Source: Bacteroidota bacterium (GTDB lineage Bacteria > Chloroflexota > Anaerolineae > Aggregatilineales > Phototrophicaceae). Taken from it: a stretch of DNA of 35,026 nt. Shown piece by piece: positions 5,201 through 22,366 of this stretch. The DNA lies in assembly GCA_027492915.1 (NCBI GenBank), contig JAPUDW010000427.1, positions 1 to 35,026 on the forward strand. The letters are read 5' to 3'. The translations under genes and the position numbers were made by a program. How positions within the stretch are numbered: position 1 is the stretch's first letter; each line of letters opens with the position of its first letter. The notes below the pieces were generated by a model that did no database searches, was not told the origin of the DNA, and was given only the letters and a program-made list of their open reading frames with translations.

Positions 5201-6115
5201 ATGAAACTTTGGAACCATTACCATACACCGCATACGGTTGATGAAGCCCTCCAACTGCTGAGTGATTATGAGGGACGAGCGCGGATCGTCGCTGGCGGAA
5301 CCGATTTGCTGGTAGATGCCCGCGCCGAAATTGCATTTGAACCCCATGAAGCCTTAATCGACATCACACATATCCCCGAACTGCTCAACATCCGCAAGGA
5401 AGGTGACCATATTTCGATTGGCGCAGGGGTGACACACACCACTATTGTGAAGTCACAGGCGATTGCTGACGGCGCGACGTGCCTTGTCGAAAGCTGCGGC
5501 GTGGTGGGTGGGCCGCAGGTGCGGAATGTAGCAACGCTCGGCGGTAATGTCGCCCACGCACTACCAGCCGGCGACGGGACAACCTCGCTGGTGGCGCTGG
5601 CTGCCGAAGTCGAAGTTTTCCATGAAGGGCAGCGTAAATGGCTGCCGGTGTGCGATGTTTTCTTAGGGCCGGGAAGGTCGCTTCTAGAAATCGGACGCGA
5701 CCTACTGCTTGGCTTCCGTTTCAAGCAAACAGGACGGGGTGAAGCGACTGCTTTTAAACGCATTATGCGCCCGCAAGGCGTAGCGCTACCGATTATGGGC
5801 TGTGCCGTTTGGGTCAAGCTTGACCCCATGTCAGCCAATTACGAGGCGGCGCGAATTAGTATCGCGCCGATTGGGCCGAAGCCGGGACGCGCAAGTGAAG
5901 TGGAGGCAGAACTCGTCGGTAAAGCTGTAAATGGTGATACCATAGAGTCAGTCGCGGCCTTCGCACAAACCGTTTTGCATCCACGTACTAGTAAATACCG
6001 CGCGACCGAAGATTACCGGAGTGAAATGATTAGTGTGCTGCTGCGGCGCACCCTCACGCTGGCGACCGAACGGGCGCGCACAGGTACGGCAGTTCCTGAA
6101 GGTGTAGGGGTTTAG
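5201..6115 (+). CDS. Molybdenum hydroxylase FAD-binding subunit (CoxM/XdhB-like)
   Basis: 304 aa, the usual size for the medium FAD subunit of the xanthine dehydrogenase/CO dehydrogenase superfamily. Residues 28-36 RIVAGGTDL and 107-116 VRNVATLGGN are the two FAD-pyrophosphate loops of this family. HALPAGDG follows where many members have NASPAAD. The C-terminal part (about 190-300) matches the CO-dehydrogenase flavoprotein C-terminal domain, ending in RATEDYRSEMISVLLRRTL. The subunit would pass electrons from the Fe-S clusters of the next gene product to NAD+ or another acceptor. GAGG precedes the ATG, and the fused Fe-S/molybdopterin gene starts ten bases after the stop, so the two are cotranscribed. 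The substrate cannot be read from this subunit. Confidence 0.9.
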   Translation: MKLWNHYHTPHTVDEALQLLSDYEGRARIVAGGTDLLVDARAEIAFEPHEALIDITHIPELLNIRKEGDHISIGAGVTHTTIVKSQAIADGATCLVESCGVVGGPQVRNVATLGGNVAHALPAGDGTTSLVALAAEVEVFHEGQRKWLPVCDVFLGPGRSLLEIGRDLLLGFRFKQTGRGEATAFKRIMRPQGVALPIMGCAVWVKLDPMSANYEAARISIAPIGPKPGRASEVEAELVGKAVNGDTIESVAAFAQTVLHPRTSKYRATEDYRSEMISVLLRRTLTLATERARTGTAVPEGVGV

Positions 6116-6125
6116 GAGTTTACCA

Positions 6126-8936
6126 ATGGGCCAACTGAACGTTACCGTAAATGGTCAACCGTATGATATAGAAGTTGCCGATTCACGCACTCTCGCCCAT
6201 TTTCTACGTCTTGACTTGGGGCTGACGGGTACAAAGATTGGTTGCGAGGAAGCCGAATGCGGCATCTGCACGGTGCTGGTCGATGGCTTGCCCGTCGACT
6301 CGTGCATTTATCCGGCGTTCAAGGCGCAGGGACGCAGCATTACCACCATTGAAGGTTTAGCCGACGGCGAGACACTTCATCCTTTGCAATCCAACTTTAT
6401 TAAGCACGGCGCGGTACAGTGCGGTTACTGCACCCCCGGTTTGATTATGACCTCCGCAGCGCTCATCGACGAGAAGCCCGAACCTAGTGAGCATGATATT
6501 AAGGTGGCGCTCAAGGATACCTACTGCCGCTGTACGGGTTACACCAGCGTCATGCAGGCCATACAATCCGCTGCGCGTGAGAAGCGTGGGTTGTCGCCGC
6601 TGCCCGTAAACGAGCCAGTTGTGGATGAACCGATGAACGTCATCAGCCGTTCGGTACCGCCGCAAGATGTGACCGAAAAGGTCACCGGTGCTGCGAAGTA
6701 TACGGACGACTACATGTTCCCTGATATGTTGTTCGCGCGGACGCTGCGTTCGCCGCATCCTCATGCGAAAGTGTTGAGCATCCACACTGAGAAGGCGAAG
6801 GCGCTGGCGGGTGTCAAGGCGGTGCTGACTTATAAAGATGTACCCGGCGAAAATTTGCATGGCCTCGTGTATCGCGATTGGCCGGTGCTGTGCGGCGATG
6901 TGGTGCGTTATACAGGCGATGCGGTAGCAATTGTTGCGGCGGAAACCGAGGAGATTGCGTCCGAAGCGCTAAAGCTTATTGAGGTTGCATATGAGCCGCT
7001 GCCGGTGGTGGGCGACCCTGAATATGCCCATAAGCCAGAAGCGCCCGTGCTGCACCCGAACCACCCGACCGGAAATTTGCTCAAGCACATTAAGGTGCGA
7101 CATGGTGATGTCGAGCAGGGTTTCGCGGAAGCGGATGTTATTGTCGAGCATGAGTACCGCACACCGACCACCGAACACGCCTTCCTTGAGCCAGAATGCG
7201 CGATTGGTGTGCCAAACGGCTACACTGATCATAAGAAACTCACCGTGTATGTGGGTTCGCAAATTCCCTATCAAGACCGCGACCAGATTGGATTAGCGAT
7301 GGGTATTCCAGCCACCGATGTGCGCGTCATCGGTACGTTGATCGGCGGTGGATTTGGCGGTAAAGAAGACATCGCGGGGCAAATTCATGTCGCGATGCTG
7401 GCGACAGTCACGGGCAAGCCAGTGAAGATGCTGTACTCGCGGCAGGAGTCGTTGATATTTCACCCCAAGCGCCACGCGACTATTATCCGCATCAAGACCG
7501 GCGCGACGAAGGACGGCAAATTGATCGCGGTACAGGCCGAATTATATGGTGACGGCGGGGCGTATGCTTCCCTTTCCGACAAGGTGATGACCCGTGCGAC
7601 CACCCATGCTACCGGCCCATATGAAGTGCCGAACGCCAAGATCGACTGCTACGCTATGTACACCAACAATGTGCCATCCGGCGCGTTCCGCGGCTTCGGT
7701 GTCACGCAGTCAGCGTTTGCCGTCGAGCAGAATATGGACATGCTGGCGGAGAAGTTGAACATCGACCCGATTGAGTTCCGGCGGATGAACGCCCAAAAAG
7801 TTGGGGTAACTACTGCGACCGGACAACTGCTGCGCGAGTCGGTGGGTTTGCTGGAAACGATTGACGATGTGAAGGGCGATATGGTCGCCAAGTCGAATGG
7901 GCATGGCTTCCAATGGAAGTGGCGTGAGGGGCATAAAGCTTATGCGTGGGGTGTCGCCTGTGCTTATAAGAATACGGGGTTGGGCGGCGGCGCACCGGAT
8001 AAATCCGAAGCAGAGATCGAGGCGTTTGAGGACGGCACGATTGAAGTGCGGACGGCTGCTGCTGATATGGGGCAGGGTATCGCCCATGTGGTTGCCCAAT
8101 GCGCAGCGGAAGAAATGCACATCGCTTATGAAAATGTGAAGGTTCTGCTGTGCGACACTGATCTGACACCCAATGGTGGTCCAACGACTGCATCTCGCCA
8201 GACGTTCATGACAGGTAATGCCGCACGGTTGGCAGCAGTCGCGCTGCGCGAAGCCATTACTAATTCGGCAGCCGAGATGCTGGATGTGCCGCCGGAAAAG
8301 ATTTACTATGAAGAAGGCTTGCTACGAAGTAACGGCCATTCCGTGCCGATGGGCAAAGTGGTGACGTGGATGAAGGAAAGCGGCCTTTCACCCAAGACGC
8401 GCCATGAGTATTGGGGGCCCAAAACCCAGCCGCTCGGTACGGGTGGCGATATGCACTTCGCCTTCAGCTACGCCACACAAGCCGCGCTGGTCGAGGTGGA
8501 TACCGACACGGGTGAAGTGCATGTGCTGAAAATTCTGTCGAGTACCGATATTGGCCGCGCCATTAACCCGTTGATGCTGCAAGGCCAAATTGAGGGCGGT
8601 ATCATCATGGCGATGGGCAACTGCATGAGCGAAGCCTTTATCCTCGAAGATGGTGTGCCATGGTCGCGGTTGCTTTCGCGCTATAAGATGCCGAGCATCA
8701 AACACACGCCAGAGATTATCTCCCGCTTGGTTGAGCATCGTTCGTCTGATGGGCCATACGGCGCGAAAGGCGTGGGCGAAATTCCGTCGATCAACACGAC
8801 TCCAGCCATTTGTAACGCTATATACAATGCGACCGGCGTTCGCATCTTCAAAATTCCGGTTGACCAAGATGCGCTGCTGCTAGCGATGAAGCGTGGTCAA
8901 ACTGAAGTTCACCGTGCGTGGCAGGATGTGAAGTAG
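6126..8936 (+). CDS. Fused [2Fe-2S] and molybdopterin subunit of a xanthine dehydrogenase-family hydroxylase
   Basis: 936 aa. Residues 1-150 form the small Fe-S subunit: a plant-type cluster with C40, C45, C48, C60, and a second cluster with C99, C102, C134, C136 (CGYCTPG, CRCTGY). After a linker (about 150-170) the large subunit follows: the a/b hammerhead (TGAAKYTDDY), GGGFGGKED (407-415), SGAFRGFG (518-525), a Gln-loop GQGIAH and GAKGVGE (879-885), whose E885 matches the family's catalytic Glu. CO dehydrogenase is unlikely because its AYxCSFR loop is absent. FRGFG resembles purine, nicotinate or aldehyde hydroxylases. Fusion of the two subunits, with FAD on a separate chain, differs from the three-gene layout. 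Expected to be cytoplasmic and to need a molybdopterin cofactor. AGGAG precedes the ATG. Confidence 0.9.
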   Translation: MGQLNVTVNGQPYDIEVADSRTLAHFLRLDLGLTGTKIGCEEAECGICTVLVDGLPVDSCIYPAFKAQGRSITTIEGLADGETLHPLQSNFIKHGAVQCGYCTPGLIMTSAALIDEKPEPSEHDIKVALKDTYCRCTGYTSVMQAIQSAAREKRGLSPLPVNEPVVDEPMNVISRSVPPQDVTEKVTGAAKYTDDYMFPDMLFARTLRSPHPHAKVLSIHTEKAKALAGVKAVLTYKDVPGENLHGLVYRDWPVLCGDVVRYTGDAVAIVAAETEEIASEALKLIEVAYEPLPVVGDPEYAHKPEAPVLHPNHPTGNLLKHIKVRHGDVEQGFAEADVIVEHEYRTPTTEHAFLEPECAIGVPNGYTDHKKLTVYVGSQIPYQDRDQIGLAMGIPATDVRVIGTLIGGGFGGKEDIAGQIHVAMLATVTGKPVKMLYSRQESLIFHPKRHATIIRIKTGATKDGKLIAVQAELYGDGGAYASLSDKVMTRATTHATGPYEVPNAKIDCYAMYTNNVPSGAFRGFGVTQSAFAVEQNMDMLAEKLNIDPIEFRRMNAQKVGVTTATGQLLRESVGLLETIDDVKGDMVAKSNGHGFQWKWREGHKAYAWGVACAYKNTGLGGGAPDKSEAEIEAFEDGTIEVRTAAADMGQGIAHVVAQCAAEEMHIAYENVKVLLCDTDLTPNGGPTTASRQTFMTGNAARLAAVALREAITNSAAEMLDVPPEKIYYEEGLLRSNGHSVPMGKVVTWMKESGLSPKTRHEYWGPKTQPLGTGGDMHFAFSYATQAALVEVDTDTGEVHVLKILSSTDIGRAINPLMLQGQIEGGIIMAMGNCMSEAFILEDGVPWSRLLSRYKMPSIKHTPEIISRLVEHRSSDGPYGAKGVGEIPSINTTPAICNAIYNATGVRIFKIPVDQDALLLAMKRGQTEVHRAWQDVK

Positions 8937-9975: not shown

Positions 9976-10296
9976 CTAATGAGCGCTCGTTAGGCGCAGC
10001 CCGATGATGCCGCCGACCAGCATGAGTAGGGATAGCAGTTTCAGTATCTCCCGAGATTCGCCCAACCAGATCATGCCCACTATGGCGGTACCCAGCGCGC
10101 CAATACCCGTCCATACGGCATACGCCGTGCCAACAGGCAGTGACTTGATAGCCTGTGCTAGTAGAAACATGCTGAGACATAAGCTAATGAGGAAAGCCAC
10201 GGTCGGCGCAGGTTTGGTAAACCCTTCCGACTGCTTGAGCATGAGCGCCCAAACGACTTCGAGAAGACCAGCAATAACAAGGATTACCCACGGCAT
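9976..10296 (-). CDS. gdx: Guanidinium exporter of the SMR family (Gdx/SugE type)
   Basis: 106 aa with four membrane helices, the standard SMR size. Helix 1 is WVILVIAGLLEVVWALMLK with the essential Glu at E13. Then come LPVGTAYAVWTGIGALGTA in helix 3 and GIIGLRLT at the end of helix 4. This is the SugE/Gdx subtype pattern, not the EmrE multidrug subtype. Gdx proteins exchange guanidinium for protons as dual-topology dimers. The frame stays open upstream to 10368, but that stretch is the riboswitch. The ATG at 10296 is the only start matching the family's N-terminus, and AAAGAGAA lies just upstream. The riboswitch at 10317-10360 independently supports the exporter role. It is transcribed alone, convergent with the GNAT gene. 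Confidence 0.95.
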   Translation of the reverse strand: MPWVILVIAGLLEVVWALMLKQSEGFTKPAPTVAFLISLCLSMFLLAQAIKSLPVGTAYAVWTGIGALGTAIVGMIWLGESREILKLLSLLMLVGGIIGLRLTSAH

Positions 10297-10316
10297 ACGA
10301 TGTTCTCTTTCGCTAA

Positions 10317-10360
10317 TGGGGTCGTCCCCAGAAAACATAGCATGCACCGGGTCGTCCCGG
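10317..10360 (-). promoter_or_regulatory. Guanidine-II riboswitch (mini-ykkC)
   Basis: Read on the minus strand, two short hairpins share the same loop: CCGGG-ACGA-CCCGG (10347-10360) and TGGGG-ACGA-CCCCA (10317-10330), separated by 16 bases. Two GC-rich 5-bp stems with ACGR loops just upstream of a start codon are the defining structure of the guanidine-II class, in which guanidinium stabilises the loop-loop contact. The second hairpin ends 20 bases before the gdx ATG and only a few bases before its ribosome site, so ligand binding would be expected to expose that site and turn translation on. The downstream gene is exactly the expected one. Confidence 0.95.
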
Positions 10361-10382
10361 AACAGCATCCACTAATTTGTGA

Positions 10383-10410
10383 ATAATACTAGTTTATCAC
10401 TGTTTGTGAA
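10383..10410 (-). promoter_or_regulatory. Promoter of the riboswitch-gdx transcript
   Basis: On the minus strand TTCACA (10405-10410) and TATTAT (10383-10388) are spaced by 16 bases, each one base off consensus. The predicted start is near 10376, some 16 bases before the first riboswitch hairpin, which leaves a compact leader. Confidence 0.6.
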
Positions 10411-10423
10411 ATTTGTCACCTGT

Positions 10424-10454
10424 AAATAAAAAGGGCTTGCCAGCGGCAAGCCCC
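10424..10454 (-). terminator. Rho-independent terminator of the long peptide/amine operon
   Basis: On the minus strand GGGCTTGCC, loop GCT and GGCAAGCCC form a perfect nine-base stem followed by TTTTTATTT. It lies 24 bases after the stop of the M20 peptidase gene and just upstream of the gdx promoter. Confidence 0.92.
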
Positions 10455-13148: not shown

Positions 13149-14606
13149 TTAGTCGTTGGCGATGAACACTGACTTGAGTTCGCTGTAATGTTCCAGCGCC
13201 GTCATGCCTTGTTCGCGCCCGATACCGCTTTGCTTCATACCACCGAATGGGGCTTCGATGTGGACGCTGCTGCTGCTGTTGATCGACAGCATCCCTGTTT
13301 CGACCGCACGGGCAACTCGCAGCGCTCGTCCGATGTCGCGTGTCCATAGCGAACCGGACAGGCCGTAGGGCGAGTCGTTGGCGAAGCGGATGGCCTCATC
13401 CTCGCCGTCGAAGGGCATAATGCCGACGACCGGCCCGAATACTTCTTCCTGCATAATTCGCATGTTGGTCGTTACATCGCTGTAAACGGCGGGCATCAGG
13501 TAATTACCATTTGCCAGCACACCATTTGGGATGTCGCCGCCGCACAAGCGTTTCGCGCCTTCTTCGTCACCGATGTTAATGTAGTTGACGACACTCTCAC
13601 GGTGGGAGGCCGTAATCAGCGGTCCCATTTCGGTGCTTTCGTCCGTCAGCAAACCCACCTTGATACCTTTGGTGACGTTCACAAACTTCTCGACAAATTC
13701 ATCATAAACAGGCCGCTCGACCAGAATACGGCTGCGAGAACAGCAGTCCTGTCCGGCATTGTCATACACTGACCACAGCGACGAGGCGACACACGCATCC
13801 AACCGCGCATCCGCAAATACGATGTTCGCCGACTTGCCACCGAGTTCCAGCGACACGCGCTTGATGCCATCCGCCGCCTGCTTCATCACACCTGCGCCAA
13901 CTTCAGTCGAGCCGGTGAAGGAGATTTTGCGCACGAGGGGATGGGTTGCCAGTGCGCTGCCGACCACGCTGCCCGAACCCGTAACGACGTTAAACACGCC
14001 TTCTGGTAGCCCAGCTTCGAGCGCTAGATCAGCCAGTGCTAACGCGCTTAATGGGGTGGCGCTGGCGGGTTTCACCACAACGGTGTTACCCATCGCCAGC
14101 GCGGGGGCAACCTTCCAGCCCGTAATGACCAGCGGGAAGTTCCACGGAATGATGAGCGCACACACGCCCAGTGGTTCGCGGAAGGTCATGTGCGTGCCGT
14201 TGGCATTCACCGGAATCGTCTGCCCGTGAATTTTGTTGACTGCACCCGCGTAATACTCGAATGTGTTGGCGACCGCGCCGATTTCGCCCCTTGCTGCGCT
14301 GATTGGCTTACCGCCGTCTGCCGACTCGATTTGTGCCAAGAACTCCACCCGTTCGCGGATCAGGTTAGCGATACGATGCAAAATTTGCCCACGTTCGCGT
14401 GTGTGCATATCGTGCCAGCGGCCTGTGCTAAATGTGGTGTGCGCGGTTTTAACGGCGCTGTCCACATCGGCGGCGTTGGCCTGTGCCACCTGTGCAATAG
14501 TTTCGCCCGTCGATGGGTTGGTGGTTGGGGCGGTGCGTCCATCGCTGGCGGCAATACGCTTGCCACCAATGGCTAATCCTTCAAATGCTGCTTGTATTGC
14601 AACCAT
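13149..14606 (-). CDS. NAD(P)-dependent aldehyde dehydrogenase (PuuC/betaine-aldehyde type)
   Basis: 485 aa, standard length. Catalytic residues are in place: N156 in IPWNFP, K179 in VVKPAS, general base E254 in LELGGKS and nucleophile C288 in AGQDCCSR. The NAD loop FTGSTEVG starts near residue 230. The GQDCC context is unlike housekeeping glycolytic enzymes and like ALDHs found beside gamma-glutamyl ligases or amine pathways. It would oxidise an amine-derived or gamma-glutamyl-amino aldehyde to the acid. It lies downstream of an SDR and a glutamine-synthetase-like ligase on the same strand, in line with a ligase-dehydrogenase-ALDH route. GAGGT lies about nine bases before the ATG. Exact substrate not determinable. 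Confidence 0.92.
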   Translation of the reverse strand: MVAIQAAFEGLAIGGKRIAASDGRTAPTTNPSTGETIAQVAQANAADVDSAVKTAHTTFSTGRWHDMHTRERGQILHRIANLIRERVEFLAQIESADGGKPISAARGEIGAVANTFEYYAGAVNKIHGQTIPVNANGTHMTFREPLGVCALIIPWNFPLVITGWKVAPALAMGNTVVVKPASATPLSALALADLALEAGLPEGVFNVVTGSGSVVGSALATHPLVRKISFTGSTEVGAGVMKQAADGIKRVSLELGGKSANIVFADARLDACVASSLWSVYDNAGQDCCSRSRILVERPVYDEFVEKFVNVTKGIKVGLLTDESTEMGPLITASHRESVVNYINIGDEEGAKRLCGGDIPNGVLANGNYLMPAVYSDVTTNMRIMQEEVFGPVVGIMPFDGEDEAIRFANDSPYGLSGSLWTRDIGRALRVARAVETGMLSINSSSSVHIEAPFGGMKQSGIGREQGMTALEHYSELKSVFIAND

Positions 14607-14641
14607 TTATGATATACCTCATGAACTCTTTGCATTAAACT

Positions 14642-14669
14642 CCCCTTTCCCTGTTTGCGGGGAAAGGGG
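14642..14669. repeat. C-rich/G-rich intergenic inverted repeat
   Basis: CCCCTTTCCC and GGGAAAGGGG form a perfect ten-base stem with an eight-base loop, followed by further G-runs up to 14683. It lies between the SDR and ALDH genes. The composition resembles REP-like intergenic elements; a related purine-rich stretch occurs near 34050-34090. It has no T-run and is not a simple terminator. Confidence 0.6.
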
Positions 14670-14687
14670 GCGGGGGATAGGGGTTTC

Positions 14688-15461
14688 TTACTCCGGTGTC
14701 ACATAGGCGGCGGTGATGCCACCATCAACCAAAAATTCGGTGCCGGTCACAAACGATGACTCGTCGGAAGCCAGATACAAAGCGCCATAAGCGATTTCCT
14801 TGGCCTCGCCGAAGCGCCCCATCGGGATATGCACCAAACGGCGCTGTTTCTTTTCCTCGGTGTTCAGGTACTTCATCAGCAGTTCGGTACGCAGTGGGCC
14901 GGGGCATAGCGCATTGACGCGGATGTTCTGGCGCGCGTGGATCATCGCCAGTTCGCGGCTCATGGAAAGTACCGCACCCTTGCTGGCGGTGTAGGCTAAC
15001 TGGGGGGTCGCCGCGCCGAGGATGGCTACGAACGAAGCGGTGTTGATGATCGAGCCGCCACCTGCCCGTTGCAGCGCAGGAATGCCGAACTTGCAGCCGA
15101 GGAACACGCCTTTGACGTTGATCTCCATCGTCAAGTCCCACACTGATTCTTCGGTGGTCACGGCGTTGTCGTCATCCGCGTGGGAGATACCGGCGTTGTT
15201 GAACAGGATATTCAGCTTGCCGTAAGTTTGCTCGGCAACCTTGACCATATTTTCGCAGTCAGCCGCCTTGGATACATCCGCGTGAGCATAAACCGCCTTG
15301 CCACCTGTCGCTTCAATTTCAGCGACCACTTTTTTACCCGCGTCATCGTTCACATCCACAACCACTACAGCAGCGCCTTCCGACGCAAACAGCAGTGCGG
15401 TTTCGCGGCCAATACCACTGCCGCCGCCCGTAATCAATGCAACTTTATCTTTCAAACGCAT
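14688..15461 (-). CDS. Short-chain dehydrogenase/reductase (SDR)
   Basis: 257 aa classical SDR. The cofactor loop TGGGSGIG is at 11-18, with an acidic D36 after the second strand (VVVVDVND) that favours NAD over NADP. NNAG is at 88-91, and the catalytic triad is S143, Y157 and K161 (YTASK). The C-terminus ends in the usual FLVDGG motif. It would oxidise an alcohol (or reduce a ketone). Between a gamma-glutamyl-type ligase and an ALDH, oxidation of an alcohol to an aldehyde is the simplest role. CAGGAG lies seven bases before the ATG. SDR substrate cannot be predicted from sequence alone. Confidence 0.92.
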   Translation of the reverse strand: MRLKDKVALITGGGSGIGRETALLFASEGAAVVVVDVNDDAGKKVVAEIEATGGKAVYAHADVSKAADCENMVKVAEQTYGKLNILFNNAGISHADDDNAVTTEESVWDLTMEINVKGVFLGCKFGIPALQRAGGGSIINTASFVAILGAATPQLAYTASKGAVLSMSRELAMIHARQNIRVNALCPGPLRTELLMKYLNTEEKKQRRLVHIPMGRFGEAKEIAYGALYLASDESSFVTGTEFLVDGGITAAYVTPE

Positions 15462-15539
15462 GTCAAAACTCCTGAAATTTGCTTAGGGCAACCCTAAATA
15501 TGGACGTTATGCAGTTCGTCCGTTAAATAAATGACCACA

Positions 15540-16931
15540 TCAAATTTGCTCAAAGTAGCGGGCGCGTTCCCATGTGGTAACGGCTTTATCATACGCCGCC
15601 TGCTCGGTGTTGTAGAAGTGCAAGTAATGCTCGATAACCTCGTCGCCAAACGCCTCACGGGCAAAAGCGCTGCGTTCCATTGCGCTGATGGCTTCGCGCA
15701 GGGTGCGCGGGACTTGCGGCAGGTTCTTGGCTGCGTACACATCGCCCTTAAAGATTTCTGGTGGCTCGATCTTATTGCGTATACCATCCAAGCCGGAAGC
15801 CAATGCCGCAGCGTAGGCTAGATATGGGTTCACATCCGCGCCGGGGATACGTGACTCGATGCGTAATGACTTGCCATGCCCGACCGCGCGGAAGCCTGCT
15901 GTCCGGTTGTCAAAGCTCCACGCGAGGCTGGTGGGTGCCCACGAGCCGGATTGGTAGCGTTTATACGAGTTAATCGTCGGCGCGTAAAAAGGCATCAGTT
16001 CACGGGTGTGGGCTATCCAGCCCCCCAAGAACCAACGAAACTCGTCCGATCCGTGTATCGGGCCGATTTCTTTCTCGCCATCAAAAATATTGTTGCGCCC
16101 GTTCAAGTCCCACAGGCTCAGGTGAATATGGCTGCTCGACCCTGCATAACGGTCATCGGGTTTCGCCATAAATGTCACCGATAGGTCAAGCTGATGTGCC
16201 ACTTCTTTGAACACCTGCTTATAGATGCTGTGGTGGTCAGCCATCGTCAGCGCTTCGGCATACCGGATGTTCAGTTCATGCTGCCCCGGCCCCCATTCAC
16301 CTTTGCTGAATTCAACGGGGATACCGCTGTTCATCAACTGCTTGCGCACAACCGCGTTCAGTACTTCCTCGCGTGTGCCTTGTAGAATGTGGTAATCCTC
16401 GATGTACGACCCGAAGTATTCCAGCTTTGTATAATCTTTGTCACGCGCCGTTTTATAAGTTTCGTTGAAAATAAAGTACTCGAGTTCAGAGGCTCCCTGT
16501 GCCATATACCCCGCATTGGCGGCTTCCGCCACCTGCTTGCTAAGGATGCTGCGCGGTGCAACTGATACAGGGGCGTTGGTTTTTTCGTCGTAGACATCAC
16601 AGATGACCATCGCCGACTTATCCAGCCATGAGGCCATCCGCAGTGTTTTCAGGTCAGGGACACAGTGGAAGTCACCATAACCCAGTTCCCAACTGGCGTA
16701 CTTGTAACCGGGGATTGGCTCCATCGGCATATCGACCGTCAGCAGGTAATCGCATGCGTGCATACCCGACTCAGCCGTCTGTGCCACAAAGAACTCGCCA
16801 GTGACACGTTTACCCAAGAAACGACCGTATAAATCGGTAAACACCGCCACGACCGTTTCAATCTCGCCTTTTTCGACCTTCTGCCGCAGTTCATCCAGCG
16901 TCAACATGCCGCGCGCAGAGACATCAGCCAT
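15540..16931 (-). CDS. Glutamine-synthetase-family ligase (gamma-glutamyl-amine synthetase-like)
   Basis: 463 aa. Glutamine-synthetase signatures are present: ELEYFIF (metal Glu), GQHELNIRYAEAL with ADHHSIYKQ, GSSSHIHLSLWD (ATP/glutamate site), the NSYKRY...WAPTSL loop, NRTAGFR and RIPGADVNPYLAYAA. It ends in WERARYFEQI, a tail common in PuuA/GlnT-type catabolic paralogues, and I see no adenylylation-loop motif of housekeeping GlnA. Such enzymes ligate glutamate to an amine (putrescine, ethanolamine, isopropylamine, anilines) using ATP. The N-terminal domain (VVAVFTDLYGRFLGKRV) is the usual beta-grasp. Neighbours (amidase, peptidase, SDR, ALDH, M20) make nitrogen assimilation by this copy unlikely. 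AAGGGGGG lies just before the ATG. The amine substrate is open. Confidence 0.88.
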   Translation of the reverse strand: MADVSARGMLTLDELRQKVEKGEIETVVAVFTDLYGRFLGKRVTGEFFVAQTAESGMHACDYLLTVDMPMEPIPGYKYASWELGYGDFHCVPDLKTLRMASWLDKSAMVICDVYDEKTNAPVSVAPRSILSKQVAEAANAGYMAQGASELEYFIFNETYKTARDKDYTKLEYFGSYIEDYHILQGTREEVLNAVVRKQLMNSGIPVEFSKGEWGPGQHELNIRYAEALTMADHHSIYKQVFKEVAHQLDLSVTFMAKPDDRYAGSSSHIHLSLWDLNGRNNIFDGEKEIGPIHGSDEFRWFLGGWIAHTRELMPFYAPTINSYKRYQSGSWAPTSLAWSFDNRTAGFRAVGHGKSLRIESRIPGADVNPYLAYAAALASGLDGIRNKIEPPEIFKGDVYAAKNLPQVPRTLREAISAMERSAFAREAFGDEVIEHYLHFYNTEQAAYDKAVTTWERARYFEQI

Positions 16932-16954
16932 AAATCCCCCCTTAGGTAACGAAA

Positions 16955-16979
16955 CCCGCAGATCAAAGCGACCTGCGGG
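16955..16979 (-). other. Stem-loop between acetamidase and ligase genes
   Basis: On the minus strand CCCGCAG and CTGCGGG pair over seven bases with an 11-base loop, followed by TTTC only. It could be a weak terminator of the acetamidase gene or a leader structure of the ligase gene, about 25 bases before its start. Confidence 0.4.
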
Positions 16980-17038
16980 GTAAGACGAATGGTGGTTAGA
17001 AATGAAATCGAGCCGATCTTAACATTGATTTAATGTTT

Positions 17039-17905
17039 TTAGAAGTCTGGTACAACCGCCATGACAATGGCTGTTGCGGGGCCGCCGAGCCGCATGTCAA
17101 CCACAGCGCTGGCGAAGGCGTAAGCATCGAACGGCTCTAGTCCACGCTCATTGATGAGTAGGCTGTAGGCTTCATCAAGCGCGGCTTGGTGCGCTTTTTC
17201 CAGTGTATCGCCTATGCCGAGGCAGTAGGTACTGCTGCCGATGCGTAAACGGGGGAATTTCAATTTCATATTCTTCTCAACACTGATCGTCAATGTGGCG
17301 TTACCTGCCGCTTCAAGGCTCACCCATGTAGGTTCAGCCACGCCCATCGCCGCGTGTAGGTCGCCCATTGCTAGCAGCGCACCATCCACCTGAACGGGCA
17401 AGTACAATGTCGCGCCTGCTGACATCTCGCGCAAGTCCATGTTGCCACCGTAGGGGTAAGCAGGCATAAAGGTCGAGCCTTTGCCTGCCGCCGGGGCAAC
17501 GCCAATACAGCCGATCATGGGTTTAATCTCGACGCTCAGACGGTTGCTAATATAAGCCCGTTCATTCTTGAGCAAAATCGGCTTCACACCCACTTCTTTT
17601 GTGTGCTTGCCCAAACCGCCGAAGTCCGGCAGCCACACCGACCACGCGCGTGTGACCTGAATATCGTTGATCTCAATTTTGAGCGCGTCCCCTGCTTCTG
17701 CGCCGCGCACCCGCACAGGGCCGGTAACCGCGTTGAAATTCTCTAGCCCAATCGCTTCGACGGTTTCCCCTTTGGACAGCCGTTCATAGGCCGCGTCACC
17801 CGTTTCAAAGGTCACTGTATCCCCACTGTCAATTTCAAGGACAGGTGGAATACTGGCATCAAACGCAAACGCTTTTTGGTCTTTTGGAATCGTAAAATTG
17901 CTCAT
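17039..17905 (-). CDS. Acetamidase/formamidase family protein
   Basis: 288 aa, about the length of the short FmdA/AmdA-family members. Recognisable blocks: NFNAVTGPVRVRGAEAGDALKIEI (family: N-x-x-TGPVxVxGAEPGD), MIGCIGVAPAAG, YGGNMD, and GDLHAAMGVAE in place of the commoner GDxHAxQGDGE. Known members hydrolyse formamide or acetamide to ammonia and the acid, but many have no tested substrate. No signal peptide, so cytoplasmic. It sits between a proline-iminopeptidase-like hydrolase and the ligase, consistent with amide-bond processing of an imported compound. AAGGAG lies about eight bases before the ATG. The MGVAE variant in the conserved acid-rich block may signal altered specificity. Confidence 0.88.
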   Translation of the reverse strand: MSNFTIPKDQKAFAFDASIPPVLEIDSGDTVTFETGDAAYERLSKGETVEAIGLENFNAVTGPVRVRGAEAGDALKIEINDIQVTRAWSVWLPDFGGLGKHTKEVGVKPILLKNERAYISNRLSVEIKPMIGCIGVAPAAGKGSTFMPAYPYGGNMDLREMSAGATLYLPVQVDGALLAMGDLHAAMGVAEPTWVSLEAAGNATLTISVEKNMKLKFPRLRIGSSTYCLGIGDTLEKAHQAALDEAYSLLINERGLEPFDAYAFASAVVDMRLGGPATAIVMAVVPDF

Positions 17906-17943
17906 ATTGGCGTACTCCTTACATCAACCGCGCAAAAAGGGTT

Positions 17944-18840
17944 CTACGGCTCGTGTCGGGCGATGAACGCGCTTAATATTTGTAGGTAGCGATCAGCTTC
18001 TTCGACATGCGCCATATGCGAACTGTTCTCAAATAATACCCATTCTGAGCCGGGAATGCCGTTATGAACTGTTTCAGCGATCAAAGGTGTCGCTTCGTCG
18101 TATCGGCCAGAAGTCACCAGCGTCGGTGCGTTGATCTTGCCCAACTGCGGGATTACGTCCCAAGTTTTGAGGGTGCCGACTACATGGAACTCGCTCGGTC
18201 CGTTCATCGTGTTATAAACTTCGGGGTTTTCGCCCAACTTCGCAAAGCTACGCTGTACATATTCGGGGTTCGGTACGACGCGGCACACATGGCGGTTATA
18301 AAACTCAGTCATCGCCGCCACATATTCGGGGTCGGTAGTTGTGCCATCCGCTTCGTGTTTGAGTAGTGTGGCATTGATTTCGGGTGGCAGTTCTTCGCGC
18401 AGCTTGTTGGCTTCTTCTACCCACTGAATCATGCTGGCAGGTGAACTGGCAATCGTCACACTGGCAACGCCCTTGGGTTGGCGAATCATATATTCCATCG
18501 CCAACATACCGCCCCATGACTGGCCGAGCAGGTGAATTTTGTCGAGGCCGAGTGCCTTTCGCACCGCGTCAACTTCTTCAACGTACAGGTCAACCGTCCA
18601 CATCTCCGGCTTCGACTCGCCAATTTGTGACAAGCCACAGCCAATTTGGTCGTAAAAGATCACCCGTCGTCCGGTCTCCGCCATCGCCGCCAGTGACCAC
18701 AGGTAGTCATGGCAAGCGCCGGGACCACCGTGCAGTAGCAGCAGGGGCAGTTTACCCGGTTCTTCTTTCTCGCCGACAATTTTGTACCACGTCTTATACC
18801 CCTTAAACGGGATATAGCCTTCAGTCGTAGGTTGGGTCAT
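17944..18840 (-). CDS. Proline iminopeptidase-family alpha/beta hydrolase
   Basis: 298 aa from the ATG at 18840. The frame is open to 18906, but that would overlap the permease gene. The AAAGGAA ribosome site fits 18840 (seven-base spacing) and is too close to the in-frame ATG at 18846. Motifs: LLHGGPGACHDY (oxyanion hole), GQSWGGM (nucleophile Ser), GRYDEATP (acid) and SSHMAHVEE (His). HGGPG and GQSWGG define the S33 proline-iminopeptidase/tricorn-factor F1 subfamily, which removes N-terminal proline or other residues from short peptides. Some relatives are amino-acid amidases. Cytoplasmic. Directly after two Dpp-like permeases it is well placed to process imported peptides. Confidence 0.9.
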   Translation of the reverse strand: MTQPTTEGYIPFKGYKTWYKIVGEKEEPGKLPLLLLHGGPGACHDYLWSLAAMAETGRRVIFYDQIGCGLSQIGESKPEMWTVDLYVEEVDAVRKALGLDKIHLLGQSWGGMLAMEYMIRQPKGVASVTIASSPASMIQWVEEANKLREELPPEINATLLKHEADGTTTDPEYVAAMTEFYNRHVCRVVPNPEYVQRSFAKLGENPEVYNTMNGPSEFHVVGTLKTWDVIPQLGKINAPTLVTSGRYDEATPLIAETVHNGIPGSEWVLFENSSHMAHVEEADRYLQILSAFIARHEP

Positions 18841-18856
18841 GGTCATGTTCCTTTCG

Positions 18857-19741
18857 TTATTGGCGCTGCGATGTGCGTGGGTCAAGTGCATCACGCACAG
18901 CGTCACCCAGCAGGTTAAATCCGAGGGTCGTAATGAGGATAGCCAAGGATGGGACGATAATCATCCACGGGGCGATACGGTATCGGCTTTGCCCCTCGTT
19001 AATCATATTGCCCCAGCTTGCGGCTGGTAGTTGAATACCCACACCGAGGAAGCTTAGCGCCGCCTCAACCAGAATGGTATTCGCGAAGCTCAGGGTTGCC
19101 CAGACCACAGTCACTGTGACTGTATGCGGCAGGATATGGTGAAAAATGATGTACCAATCCGTCGCGCCCAGCGCCCGCGCACTTTCCACGAATACGCGCT
19201 CACGGACGCTCAATACTTGGCTGCGAACCAAACGCACCAGCGCTGGAAAGGTAACGATGGTCAAAATGGCAATCACCGTTGTAAAACTTTTTTCCCACAC
19301 CGCGCCGATGCCTAATGCTAATAAAATGGCAGGGAATGCCAATATCACATCGACAAACCGCATGATGATCCAATCGCTTGTGCCGGAGTAATACCCTGCC
19401 CATAAGCCGAGGAACGTGCCCAGAAGAGCAGCCGTGACGTTCGCAACCACGCTCACCGTAAGTGATACCCGTGCGCCGTATAGCATTCGGCTCAGGATAT
19501 CGCGTCCCAAATTGTCACTGCCGAGCGGGAAACGTGCATCAGGCGCTAAGGGGGTGCCTGTCGGTGAAAGGCCATCGCGGAATTGTTTAAGCGGATCGGC
19601 AGGTGAGATAATCGGCGCGAAGATTGCTGCTAATGCCACCAGTAACACTAGAGTTGCACCAATCCAAGCACGGGGCAAGCGCCGGAGTTGTACCCAGAAG
19701 CCCCGCTCAATAGGTTTTTGTTGAAGATCAATTGTGGTCAT
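18857..19741 (-). CDS. Peptide/nickel-type ABC transporter permease (DppC-like)
   Basis: 294 aa inner-membrane permease. The N-terminal cytoplasmic stretch leads into the first membrane helix (about 28-50). The extracytoplasmic loop has the DppC hallmark PLGSDNLGRDILSRMLYGARVSL, the EAA loop reads FVESARALGATDWYIIFHHILP, and the end is GDAVRDALDPR. GAGGAC precedes the ATG, seven bases after the DppB-like stop. It pairs with the DppB-like gene upstream. No DppD/DppF ATPase genes follow; instead hydrolase genes do. Substrates of this family are oligopeptides, dipeptides, nickel or other small ligands; the downstream peptidases favour peptides or amides. Confidence 0.93.
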   Translation of the reverse strand: MTTIDLQQKPIERGFWVQLRRLPRAWIGATLVLLVALAAIFAPIISPADPLKQFRDGLSPTGTPLAPDARFPLGSDNLGRDILSRMLYGARVSLTVSVVANVTAALLGTFLGLWAGYYSGTSDWIIMRFVDVILAFPAILLALGIGAVWEKSFTTVIAILTIVTFPALVRLVRSQVLSVRERVFVESARALGATDWYIIFHHILPHTVTVTVVWATLSFANTILVEAALSFLGVGIQLPAASWGNMINEGQSRYRIAPWMIIVPSLAILITTLGFNLLGDAVRDALDPRTSQRQ

Positions 19742-19748
19742 GATGTCC

Positions 19749-20669
19749 TCATGTTAGGCGAACGCGTGGGTCAATGGCGATATAAAGGACATCAACAAAT
19801 AAGTTGAGGAATACGACCGCTACCGAGGCGAACAGTACGGTTCCCATAATCATCGGTGTGTCTTGGTTGCGGATAGCCGTCCACGCTTGCAAACCGATAC
19901 CCGGCCAGCCAAATACCGCCTCAATCACCACAACACCCCCCAATAGCAGGGCTAGATCAAGTCCTGCCAGCGTGACAACCGGCATCAGGGCGTTACGCAA
20001 GATGTGGCGTGAAAGAACCGTGCGTGGCGATAAACCTTTGGCGCGTGCAGTGCGGACATAATCTTCGCCCGATACTTCTAAAATGCTGTTGCGCAGCACC
20101 CGCGAATAAAAAGCCGTACCACCGACACCCAGCACCAAGGCCGGCAAGACGAGGTGCAGCGGCGTGCCGTAGCCTCCGAGCGGAAAGATCGGTATTAAGA
20201 ATCCAAATACATACAGCGCCACCAACCCCAAAGCAAACTGTGGTATCGAAACACCGACCAGCGCGACAATCGTGGCAAGTTGGTCGATCCATGAGCCGGG
20301 GCGCGTCGCCGCGAGGATACCCAGCGGAATACCTACGAGCAGCTCAACAAACAAACCAGCTACGGCTAATTGGATGGTCGCAGGTAAGCGTTCGAACACC
20401 GCTTGCAGCACCGGGCGTTTATCACGGGTGGATTGTCCGAGGTCGCCCTGTATCGCCCGACCCATGTAGCGAATGTACTGCACCGGCAGCGGTTGGTCTA
20501 AACCCCACAACACTCGGATACGTTGCACCGTTTCTTCCGGTGCGCGGGGTCCCGCATACATGCGGGCGGCATCACCGGGCATTAGGAACACAAGCAGGAA
20601 TGAAATGGAGGCGACGCCAAAAATCACGCCAAAAGCACCCAACAGACGACGAATGATATATGCGATCAC
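19749..20669 (-). CDS. Peptide/nickel-type ABC transporter permease (DppB-like)
   Basis: 306 aa. It starts MIAYIIRRLLGAFGVIFGVASISFLLVFLMPGD, the standard DppB N-terminus, then has LGLDQPLPVQYIRY-like spacing and GDLGQSTRDKRPV. The EAA loop is EDYVRTARAKGLSPRTVLSRH and the end is DVLYIAIDPRVRL. The start codon is GTG with AGGTAA six bases upstream; an overlapping ATG two bases earlier reads ATGTGA and is out of frame. It lies 74 bases after the binding-protein gene, with a long stem-loop in the gap, and is followed closely by its DppC-like partner. Confidence 0.93.
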   Translation of the reverse strand: MIAYIIRRLLGAFGVIFGVASISFLLVFLMPGDAARMYAGPRAPEETVQRIRVLWGLDQPLPVQYIRYMGRAIQGDLGQSTRDKRPVLQAVFERLPATIQLAVAGLFVELLVGIPLGILAATRPGSWIDQLATIVALVGVSIPQFALGLVALYVFGFLIPIFPLGGYGTPLHLVLPALVLGVGGTAFYSRVLRNSILEVSGEDYVRTARAKGLSPRTVLSRHILRNALMPVVTLAGLDLALLLGGVVVIEAVFGWPGIGLQAWTAIRNQDTPMIMGTVLFASVAVVFLNLFVDVLYIAIDPRVRLT

Positions 20670-20688
20670 ATTGTTACCTGAATAAACC

Positions 20689-20719
20689 GTATAGGGACAT
20701 GATTGCCATGTCCCTATAC
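20689..20719. other. Perfect 13-bp stem-loop between binding-protein and DppB-like genes
   Basis: GTATAGGGACATG and CATGTCCCTATAC are exact complements with a five-base loop. No T-run follows on the transcribed strand, so a role in 3' end protection of the upstream binding-protein message, or partial termination, is more likely than a full stop. It is the same arrangement as at the other two transporter operons here. Confidence 0.75.
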
Positions 20720-20743
20720 TTAATTAGACGATTCAGAGGTGAA

Positions 20744-22306
20744 TTATTTGAGCGTGGCCTCGGCAAAGCGCAGCAGCACTGCCGGGTCAGTTTGGATATT
20801 CAAACGGCTGCTGGAGAAGTAGTAGTCAACGGCTTGGATCAAGGGAATGTTGGGCAGTTGTTCAGCAACTGCGCCTTCAAATGCCGAGAATGCCGCCCAG
20901 CGTTCCTCACCCAACGGAATCTTGGTGGCTTCGTTGAAAATCGCTTCAAGGTCTTCGTTGCAGTAGTTGCCCCAGTTGTATGAGCCGCCGCATTGCAGCA
21001 AAGGCTCCCAGTTGTTCGACGGATCTTGGTAGTCCATGTACCAGTTGGTCATGATCAAGCTCAGATCGTCTGTTTTCTGATTGACTACATCAAGGAACTG
21101 CGCTGTGTCGATGGATTCAAGATCGACAGTTACGCCAATCGCCGAAAGATCACCGACAACTGCTTGCGCAAATGCCACATCATCGGGGAACAGTGTCGAG
21201 AGCATATTGGTGGTGAAGCCATCTGGGTAACCCGCTTCTGCCAACAGTGCCTTCGCACCTTCGGGGTCATAGGCTGGTGCAATAACATCGGGATTGTGCC
21301 CAACCACGCTGGCCGGCAGGAAGCCGCCAATCGGCGTACCGCGACCGTTCTTGATCTGGACGAGGCGTTCACGGTCAACCGCCATGCTCAATGCTTGGCG
21401 CACACGCACATCACTGAACGGTTCTTTGTTATTGTTCATGATGACGTAACCGGTGTTTGGGAAGCCTTCGGAGGCGATCAGTTGCGGTGATAGCACTGTG
21501 TCCGCCGCCAAGCGTGGGTAGTCTGAGCTGGATACGAAGTCCAGCGCAATGTCAGCTTCACCATTTTCAATCTTCAGGATTTCAACCGATGCTTCGACAC
21601 CCAACTGCATATCAAAACCGTCAAATGCCGGTTGGCCGGGTTCAAAGTAGTACGGGTTTTTCTTGCCGACGATCATCACGCCGCTTTCCCAGCTTTCGAT
21701 CATGAAGGGACCAGCACCCAACGGCTTACGACCGAAGTCATCACCCGCTGCCTCAACCCCTTCTTGTGAAACGATAAAACCGGGGGGCAGGGCAAAACGC
21801 TGCATCATCGTCCACACAGGAGCGGTAGTCGTGAATTCAATTGTCAGCGGGTCAATAACCTTGATACCCGCCACATCATCAGCCGTGCCAGCCAAAAAGT
21901 CCGACGCGCCCACCAGCGGCTCGAACATGAATGAGGTCGGCGAGGCGGTTGCGGGGTTCAGCAGGCGCAAGAAGCTCCACCTGACTTCTTCAGCGGTCAG
22001 CGGGCTTCCGTTTGAGAACTTTAGGTCAGGGCGCAGCTTGAAGGTGTAAACGGTACCGTCATCGCTGATCGTCCATGATTCAGCCAAAGCAGGGATTGGA
22101 GTGCCGGGATCGGCGAGTTTCACCAACCCGACGTAAAACAAGGAGGCAGTCGGCCATGTTTCAGTTTCATAGGCGATATGCGGGTCAGATGTACGCATAT
22201 CCTGATTAAAAAGGATATGGAGGGTGTTGTCCTGCGCGCCAACGGTTGCCAGCGACAGTACAAATGTCAAAAGTAGAACGACAATGCCTGCACGAAAAGT
22301 CCGCAT
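20744..22306 (-). CDS. ABC transporter solute-binding protein, family 5 (DppA/OppA-like)
   Basis: 520 aa secreted protein. A signal peptide MRTFRAGIVVLLLTFVLSLA ends near VGAQD, without a lipobox. Family-5 features: DMRTSDPHIAYETETW at the start, AESWTISDDGTVYTFKLRPDLKFSNGSPLTAEEVRWSF-type region, and AEAGYPDGF plus SMAVDRE blocks later. The frame begins with a GTG at 22312. The AAGGGAG site overlaps that GTG and suits the ATG at 22306 instead. It is the first gene of the long peptide/amine array and is preceded by a promoter and inverted repeat. Ligands of this family are usually oligopeptides, but nickel, opines and glycosides also occur. Confidence 0.92.
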   Translation of the reverse strand: MRTFRAGIVVLLLTFVLSLATVGAQDNTLHILFNQDMRTSDPHIAYETETWPTASLFYVGLVKLADPGTPIPALAESWTISDDGTVYTFKLRPDLKFSNGSPLTAEEVRWSFLRLLNPATASPTSFMFEPLVGASDFLAGTADDVAGIKVIDPLTIEFTTTAPVWTMMQRFALPPGFIVSQEGVEAAGDDFGRKPLGAGPFMIESWESGVMIVGKKNPYYFEPGQPAFDGFDMQLGVEASVEILKIENGEADIALDFVSSSDYPRLAADTVLSPQLIASEGFPNTGYVIMNNNKEPFSDVRVRQALSMAVDRERLVQIKNGRGTPIGGFLPASVVGHNPDVIAPAYDPEGAKALLAEAGYPDGFTTNMLSTLFPDDVAFAQAVVGDLSAIGVTVDLESIDTAQFLDVVNQKTDDLSLIMTNWYMDYQDPSNNWEPLLQCGGSYNWGNYCNEDLEAIFNEATKIPLGEERWAAFSAFEGAVAEQLPNIPLIQAVDYYFSSSRLNIQTDPAVLLRFAEATLK

Positions 22307-22366
22307 ATGCACTCCCTTGTAAAAACTATCTGTAGATTTAGTTGATAATGTTTCTAAATCCGGTCA

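Follow-up and report, generated by a model that had tools for sequence, protein, structure and literature searches.

A predicted guanidine-II riboswitch upstream of a gdx exporter gene in Chloroflexota and the proposed pairing of its linker with the ribosome-binding site

Guanidine is a toxic compound that is sensed by the guanidine-II (mini-ykkC) riboswitch. Members of this class carry hairpins with ACGR loops joined by a linker of 7-40 nt (PMC7544219, PMC5486947), and a 2025 review, with 611 examples, finds them mostly in Proteobacteria (PMC12186494). The crystallised guanidine-II RNA is that of the cyanobacterium Gloeobacter violaceus, for which a helix overlapping P2 and the ribosome-binding site (RBS) was suggested (PMC5486947). 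For the E. coli RNA, the anti-Shine-Dalgarno (anti-SD) model that is considered below, in which the linker pairs with the Shine-Dalgarno region, was proposed and termed putative (PMC9094411, PMC7544219). The model itself is thus already published; the comparative support for it comes from the present analysis.

The locus described here lies on the minus strand of a 35,026-nt stretch of DNA that was analysed as a whole (hereafter the window). Two 5-bp hairpins with identical ACGA loops, CCGGG-ACGA-CCCGG and TGGGG-ACGA-CCCCA, stand 16 bases apart at 10360-10317 on either side of the spacer TGCATGCTATGTTTTC, exactly as an earlier note on this DNA had read them. The covariance-model check proposed in that note returned a match of Rfam RF01068 (Guanidine-II, mini-ykkC) to minus-strand positions 10317-10363 at 43.5 bits, against a cut-off of 32 bits, over the full model (1-48 of 48; E = 1.3e-5 for the whole window); it is the single RF01068 match in the entire 6.86-Mb genome. 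A mechanical search of both strands of the window for pairs of ACGR hairpins 4-50 nt apart yielded one pair, at this locus, and the guanidine-I, -III and -IV riboswitches found no match in the window or in the loci scanned. With two GC-rich hairpins, ACGR tetraloops, 5-bp stems, a 16-nt linker and a guanidine-related gene whose RBS follows shortly downstream, the locus has every trait by which the guanidine-II class is recognised at the sequence level. The features, from the aptamer to the candidate promoter, are the following.

10317..10363, minus strand: predicted guanidine-II aptamer, whole RF01068 match (43.5 bits, model 1-48/48)
10347..10360, minus strand: P1 hairpin CCGGG-ACGA-CCCGG (sequence, RF01068 match, P1 pairs kept with two-sided changes in relatives)
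10331..10346, minus strand: 16-nt linker between P1 and P2, TGCATGCTATGTTTTC (sequence)
10330..10338, minus strand: predicted anti-Shine-Dalgarno AUGUUUUCU, the last eight linker bases and the first P2 base (nine contiguous pairs with 10300-10308)
10317..10330, minus strand: P2 hairpin UGGGG-ACGA-CCCCA (sequence; four G-C pairs invariant in 12 Chloroflexota sequences)
10300..10308, minus strand: Shine-Dalgarno region AGAGAACAU, predicted anti-SD partner (MFE fold, comparative pairing counts)
10293..10298, minus strand: GUAUGC, start codon and neighbours, whose predicted OFF-fold partner is GCAUGC at 10340-10345 on the P1/linker border (MFE fold)
9976..10296, minus strand: gdx (sugE), predicted 106-aa SMR-family guanidinium exporter (NF008512, Gdx-Clo 6wk5)
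10383..10410, minus strand: sigma-70-like promoter candidate TTCACA-16-TATTAT (consensus scan 10/12; weak against shuffles)

Across 12 Chloroflexota sequences, 94.7% of the P1 and P2 cells are paired and three P1 pairs have changed on both sides; the four G-C pairs of P2 are invariant and therefore uninformative on paired changes. The relatives keep both loops, and the loss of ACGR loops from homologous upstream regions, which the earlier note had named as evidence against a riboswitch, was not seen.

The ATG at 10296, 20 nt downstream of P2, opens the reading frame of a 106-aa SMR protein that is matched by the NCBI SugE model NF008512 (129.4 bits against a cut-off of 126) and whose most similar solved structure is Gdx-Clo (6wk5, E 4.2e-30). 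Residues E13, W16, S42, Y59 and W62 and the Gly-Ile-Gly fulcrum, all named as functional in PMC9574504, are present in the window exporter at the same numbers as in Gdx-Clo, several of the substrate-site residues being common to Qac-type SMRs and not decisive for Gdx by themselves. These two matches bear out the Gdx/SugE-type exporter that had been proposed behind the aptamer and, together with the RF01068 match, the proposed pairing of riboswitch class and target. It had also been claimed that gene callers would choose a start at 10368 and hide the riboswitch within the coding frame. This is borne out in part: the mechanical open reading frame does begin there and traverses the aptamer, the 10368 start being one seen in a mechanical ORF list. 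We reject 10368 as the start of the gene, its frame not being conserved in relatives. In four of 11 relatives the frame ahead of the gdx ATG is closed at a distance of 1-12 codons, and the P1-to-ATG distance ranges from 66 to 77 nt among relatives, out of phase, making 10296 the likely start of gdx. As to the "good promoter" noted just upstream, TTCACA-16-TATTAT (10410-10383) does agree with the consensus at 10 of 12 positions, but the claim is weak, the count of promoter-like sites being two versus 0.7 +/- 0.8 for shuffles. A terminator-like hairpin with a T run (10432-10454, minus strand) directly follows the M20 dipeptidase gene upstream, so that gdx probably has a transcript to itself.

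Folding of the leader brings the linker and the RBS together. In the MFE fold, linker segment AUGUUUUCU (10338-10330) pairs around P2 with the Shine-Dalgarno region AGAGAACAU (10308-10300), and GUAUGC (10298-10293), the stretch containing the start codon, is paired with GCAUGC (10345-10340). This unconstrained fold corresponds to the OFF state (-34.6 kcal/mol, z -2.74), with P1 mostly lost; in the free ensemble the probability of P1 is 0.11 and that of an unpaired AUG 0.0. P2 is compatible with the anti-SD helix, direct competition with the extended helix being confined to P1. When the fold is constrained to contain P1, P2 and a free linker, the Shine-Dalgarno region goes from a mean unpaired probability of 0.25 to one of 0.87. 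The window linker-RBS duplex reaches -14.1 kcal/mol versus a shuffled-linker value of -6.9 (p 0.004), and pairing of this quality is reached by 0.18% of random stretches of the window. Modelling favours the free ensemble of the window over the linker-free state by about 13 kcal/mol, the kissing contact lying outside the energy model (means of 12.3 kcal/mol for other loci and 12.8 for the Chloroflexota set). Such a gap implies either that ligand action has to precede transcription of the RBS or that the helix is made too stable by the energy model. Folding and the covariation described below fit a predicted OFF state in which the RBS is masked.

We interpret this guanidine-II riboswitch, with a probability of about 0.92, as an ON switch that acts on translation of Gdx, the guanidinium exporter. 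What we observe in its favour is the RNA family match, the identity of the gene, an RNA-gdx pair that is conserved in the lineage and compensating changes in the linker-RBS helix. Published work on other members supplies the rest, namely the binding of guanidinium, the kissing and the direction in which the switch works. In the absence of guanidine, the 3' half of the linker would pair with the Shine-Dalgarno region, and the region of the start codon, GUAUGC, would be taken up by GCAUGC from the P1/linker border, leaving translation blocked and P1 largely undone. Upon accumulation of guanidinium, P1 and P2 would form and kiss via their ACGA loops, each binding one guanidinium, and kissing would keep the linker off the ribosome site such that Gdx is made and exports guanidinium, taking up protons in exchange. 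The gap of about 13 kcal/mol speaks against this reading unless the choice between the two states falls while the RNA is still being transcribed, ahead of the RBS.

The element is not confined to the window genome. In the genus it is present in three of 17 genomes, those with a Gdx at least 78% identical to that of the window, both genus mates with such a Gdx carrying it; a further member (G408) has a 54% Gdx relative and no Rfam match nearby. The family counts 10 of 98 genomes with the element and the order 11 of 154; in the class sample four of 396 genomes exceeded the cut-off, one of them a false positive, and the phylum sample yielded two of 400. In the flanks of 12 relatives (L005, L006, L129, L134-L139, L140 from another family of the order, L131 from another family of the class and L002 from another class) the element precedes a Gdx-type gene by 15-27 nt in all 12, most of them without further DNA similarity to the window. 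In L132, from another family of the same class, a guanidine-II match that stays below the threshold (31.2 bits) lies near an SMR gene belonging to a different clade and may represent a second, independent association. The expectation that the locus would widen the range of the class is less firmly supported, the class being already known outside Proteobacteria from Gloeobacter violaceus and from L018, a near-threshold acidobacterial example before gdx. Our literature search found no report of guanidine-II in Chloroflexota; the Rfam species list was outside that search, and no claim to a first can be made. The element is an established and apparently inherited feature of part of the Chloroflexota.

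A double hairpin arising by chance, or a coding sequence caught by a small model, deserves consideration given that such matches do occur: one at L130:1501-1557 scores 36.2 bits, over the cut-off, inside a xanthine-dehydrogenase-like reading frame and was rejected as a false positive, and L003 (31.5 bits) and L004 (28.8 bits) both lie within reading frames that look coding. With L133 in a long open frame as well, not every RF01068 match in the phylum is to be taken as real. The window element, in contrast, scores 43.5 bits, is intergenic, lies 20 nt from gdx and is kept before gdx in the 12 relatives despite their mostly lacking further DNA similarity, by which this explanation is refuted, its residual probability being negligible. 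A contaminating contig, or a proteobacterial locus recently transferred into a Chloroflexota bin, might be suspected from the state of the assembly (445 contigs, 5.3% estimated contamination) and from the patchy distribution in the family. As to the host, the rpoB of the window genome and that of a named Anaerolineaceae bacterium (66% identity) share a clade with full support, adjoined by a genome from a different class of the phylum; by this tree the host phylum is Chloroflexota, in agreement with what had been thought probable, and the class probably Anaerolineae. The contig, however, is no stray, since genus mate G414 has the same arrangement in a 1.74-Mb contig, at 79-85% DNA identity over about 16 kb on both flanks. 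Furthermore, in a tree of 63 proteins the Chloroflexota riboswitch-linked exporters fall into one 15-member group (SH-aLRT 98) apart from proteobacterial Gdx, a split that is supported, unlike the details within it, in a tree of few columns; the group also takes in a "Bacillota" MAG (L007) and a long-branched row whose place is unsure (L074). This single clade argues against recent transfer from Proteobacteria, and together with the G414 contig it makes contamination or transfer very improbable. The Gdx of the Bacillota MAG (ZC3RG07; L007:3001-3318), inside the Chloroflexota exporter clade and 70% identical to that of the window, is the nearest relative outside the phylum; upstream of it no guanidine riboswitch of any class was found at E 0.5, and a transfer of the gene without its switch is possible.

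A third alternative accepts the aptamer as genuine and dispenses with a linker anti-SD, control being exerted by P1-P2 kissing beside the ribosome site or by a different helix that overlaps both P2 and the RBS, along the lines proposed for Gloeobacter (PMC5486947). Here the comparative evidence on the helix cuts both ways. Across the 12 sequences, 76.4% of helix cells are paired versus 71.5% when shuffled (3/500) and 46-57% when slid. In the six best-matching sequences, a set picked after the helices were seen and whose counts are therefore optimistic, the 11-pair helix is 90.9% paired, four of its pairs have changed on both sides (3/500) and its covariation score is 0.352 (1/500); of the two-sided changes, one is A-U to G-C, two are U-A to C-G, and the fourth, C-G to U-A, falls at the Shine-Dalgarno. 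A strong helix is present in five of 12 Chloroflexota sequences (p 0.012 or less) versus none of 28 other, mostly proteobacterial loci, kinship being ignored in these counts. In the latter 28, linker-RBS pairing averages -7.5 kcal/mol versus -8.2 when shuffled, no excess, and we accordingly rejected complementarity as a general guanidine-II trait. Among the Chloroflexota, pairing in L134, L136, L137 and L002 is likewise not above shuffles; own versus swapped linkers over all 12 sequences give p 0.017, which is modest because the sequences are related and four are without a strong helix. These shuffled-level loci favour control without a linker anti-SD. The strong and covarying helix of the window and its close relatives is not predicted by such models, which we consider unlikely. 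Returning to the translational ON switch with an anti-SD linker, we put forward, tentatively and at a little under even odds, that this lineage has a distinct guanidine-II expression platform, a linker-RBS helix of about 11 pairs, kept by compensating changes, that in the window and in L005 takes in the start codon too. If true, this would lend comparative support to the model of a linker anti-SD, for which the sampled proteobacterial loci offer short complementarity not above shuffles.

Other genes of the window were noted in passing. A minus-strand cluster at 13149-22312 (aldehyde dehydrogenase, SDR, glutamine-synthetase-like protein, acetamidase/formamidase, alpha/beta hydrolase and peptide-type ABC importer) has the look of an operon for amine or amide catabolism, in which no guanidine-specific gene was recognised. 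On the plus strand at 5201-8936 lies a xanthine-dehydrogenase-like pair, an FAD subunit followed by a fused 2Fe-2S and molybdopterin subunit (936 aa), that scores near, but under, the cut-off of the selenium-dependent XDH model.

The presence of a mainly proteobacterial riboswitch class in part of the Chloroflexota implies guanidine stress in these bacteria. The strong, covarying anti-Shine-Dalgarno helix renders the still putative switching step of guanidine-II RNAs directly testable, and the Chloroflexota RNA is perhaps a better model than that of E. coli.

Compared with known systems, the window element shares its ligand and similar target genes with the guanidine-I, -III and -IV riboswitches, whose folds are different. 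Its exporter can be aligned with Gdx-Clo (PDB 6WK5/6WK8/6WK9) over residues 1-104, with key residues at the same numbers, and differs from it in much of helices 2 and 4, this likeness being one of sequence. Like the guanidine-II RNAs of E. coli gdx/sugE and Gloeobacter violaceus, the element has two GC-rich ACGR hairpins, here with a 16-nt linker, next to the RBS of a Gdx-type exporter gene and upstream of it, and a proposed linker anti-SD. It differs from them in its host phylum, in a much longer linker-RBS stretch (nine contiguous pairs for the window and 11-12 for L006 and L129) and in a linker pairing that extends, for the window and L005, as far as the start codon. By its sequence the locus belongs to a known class, set apart by its host phylum and by the predicted strength and reach of its linker-RBS helix, which is possibly clade-specific.
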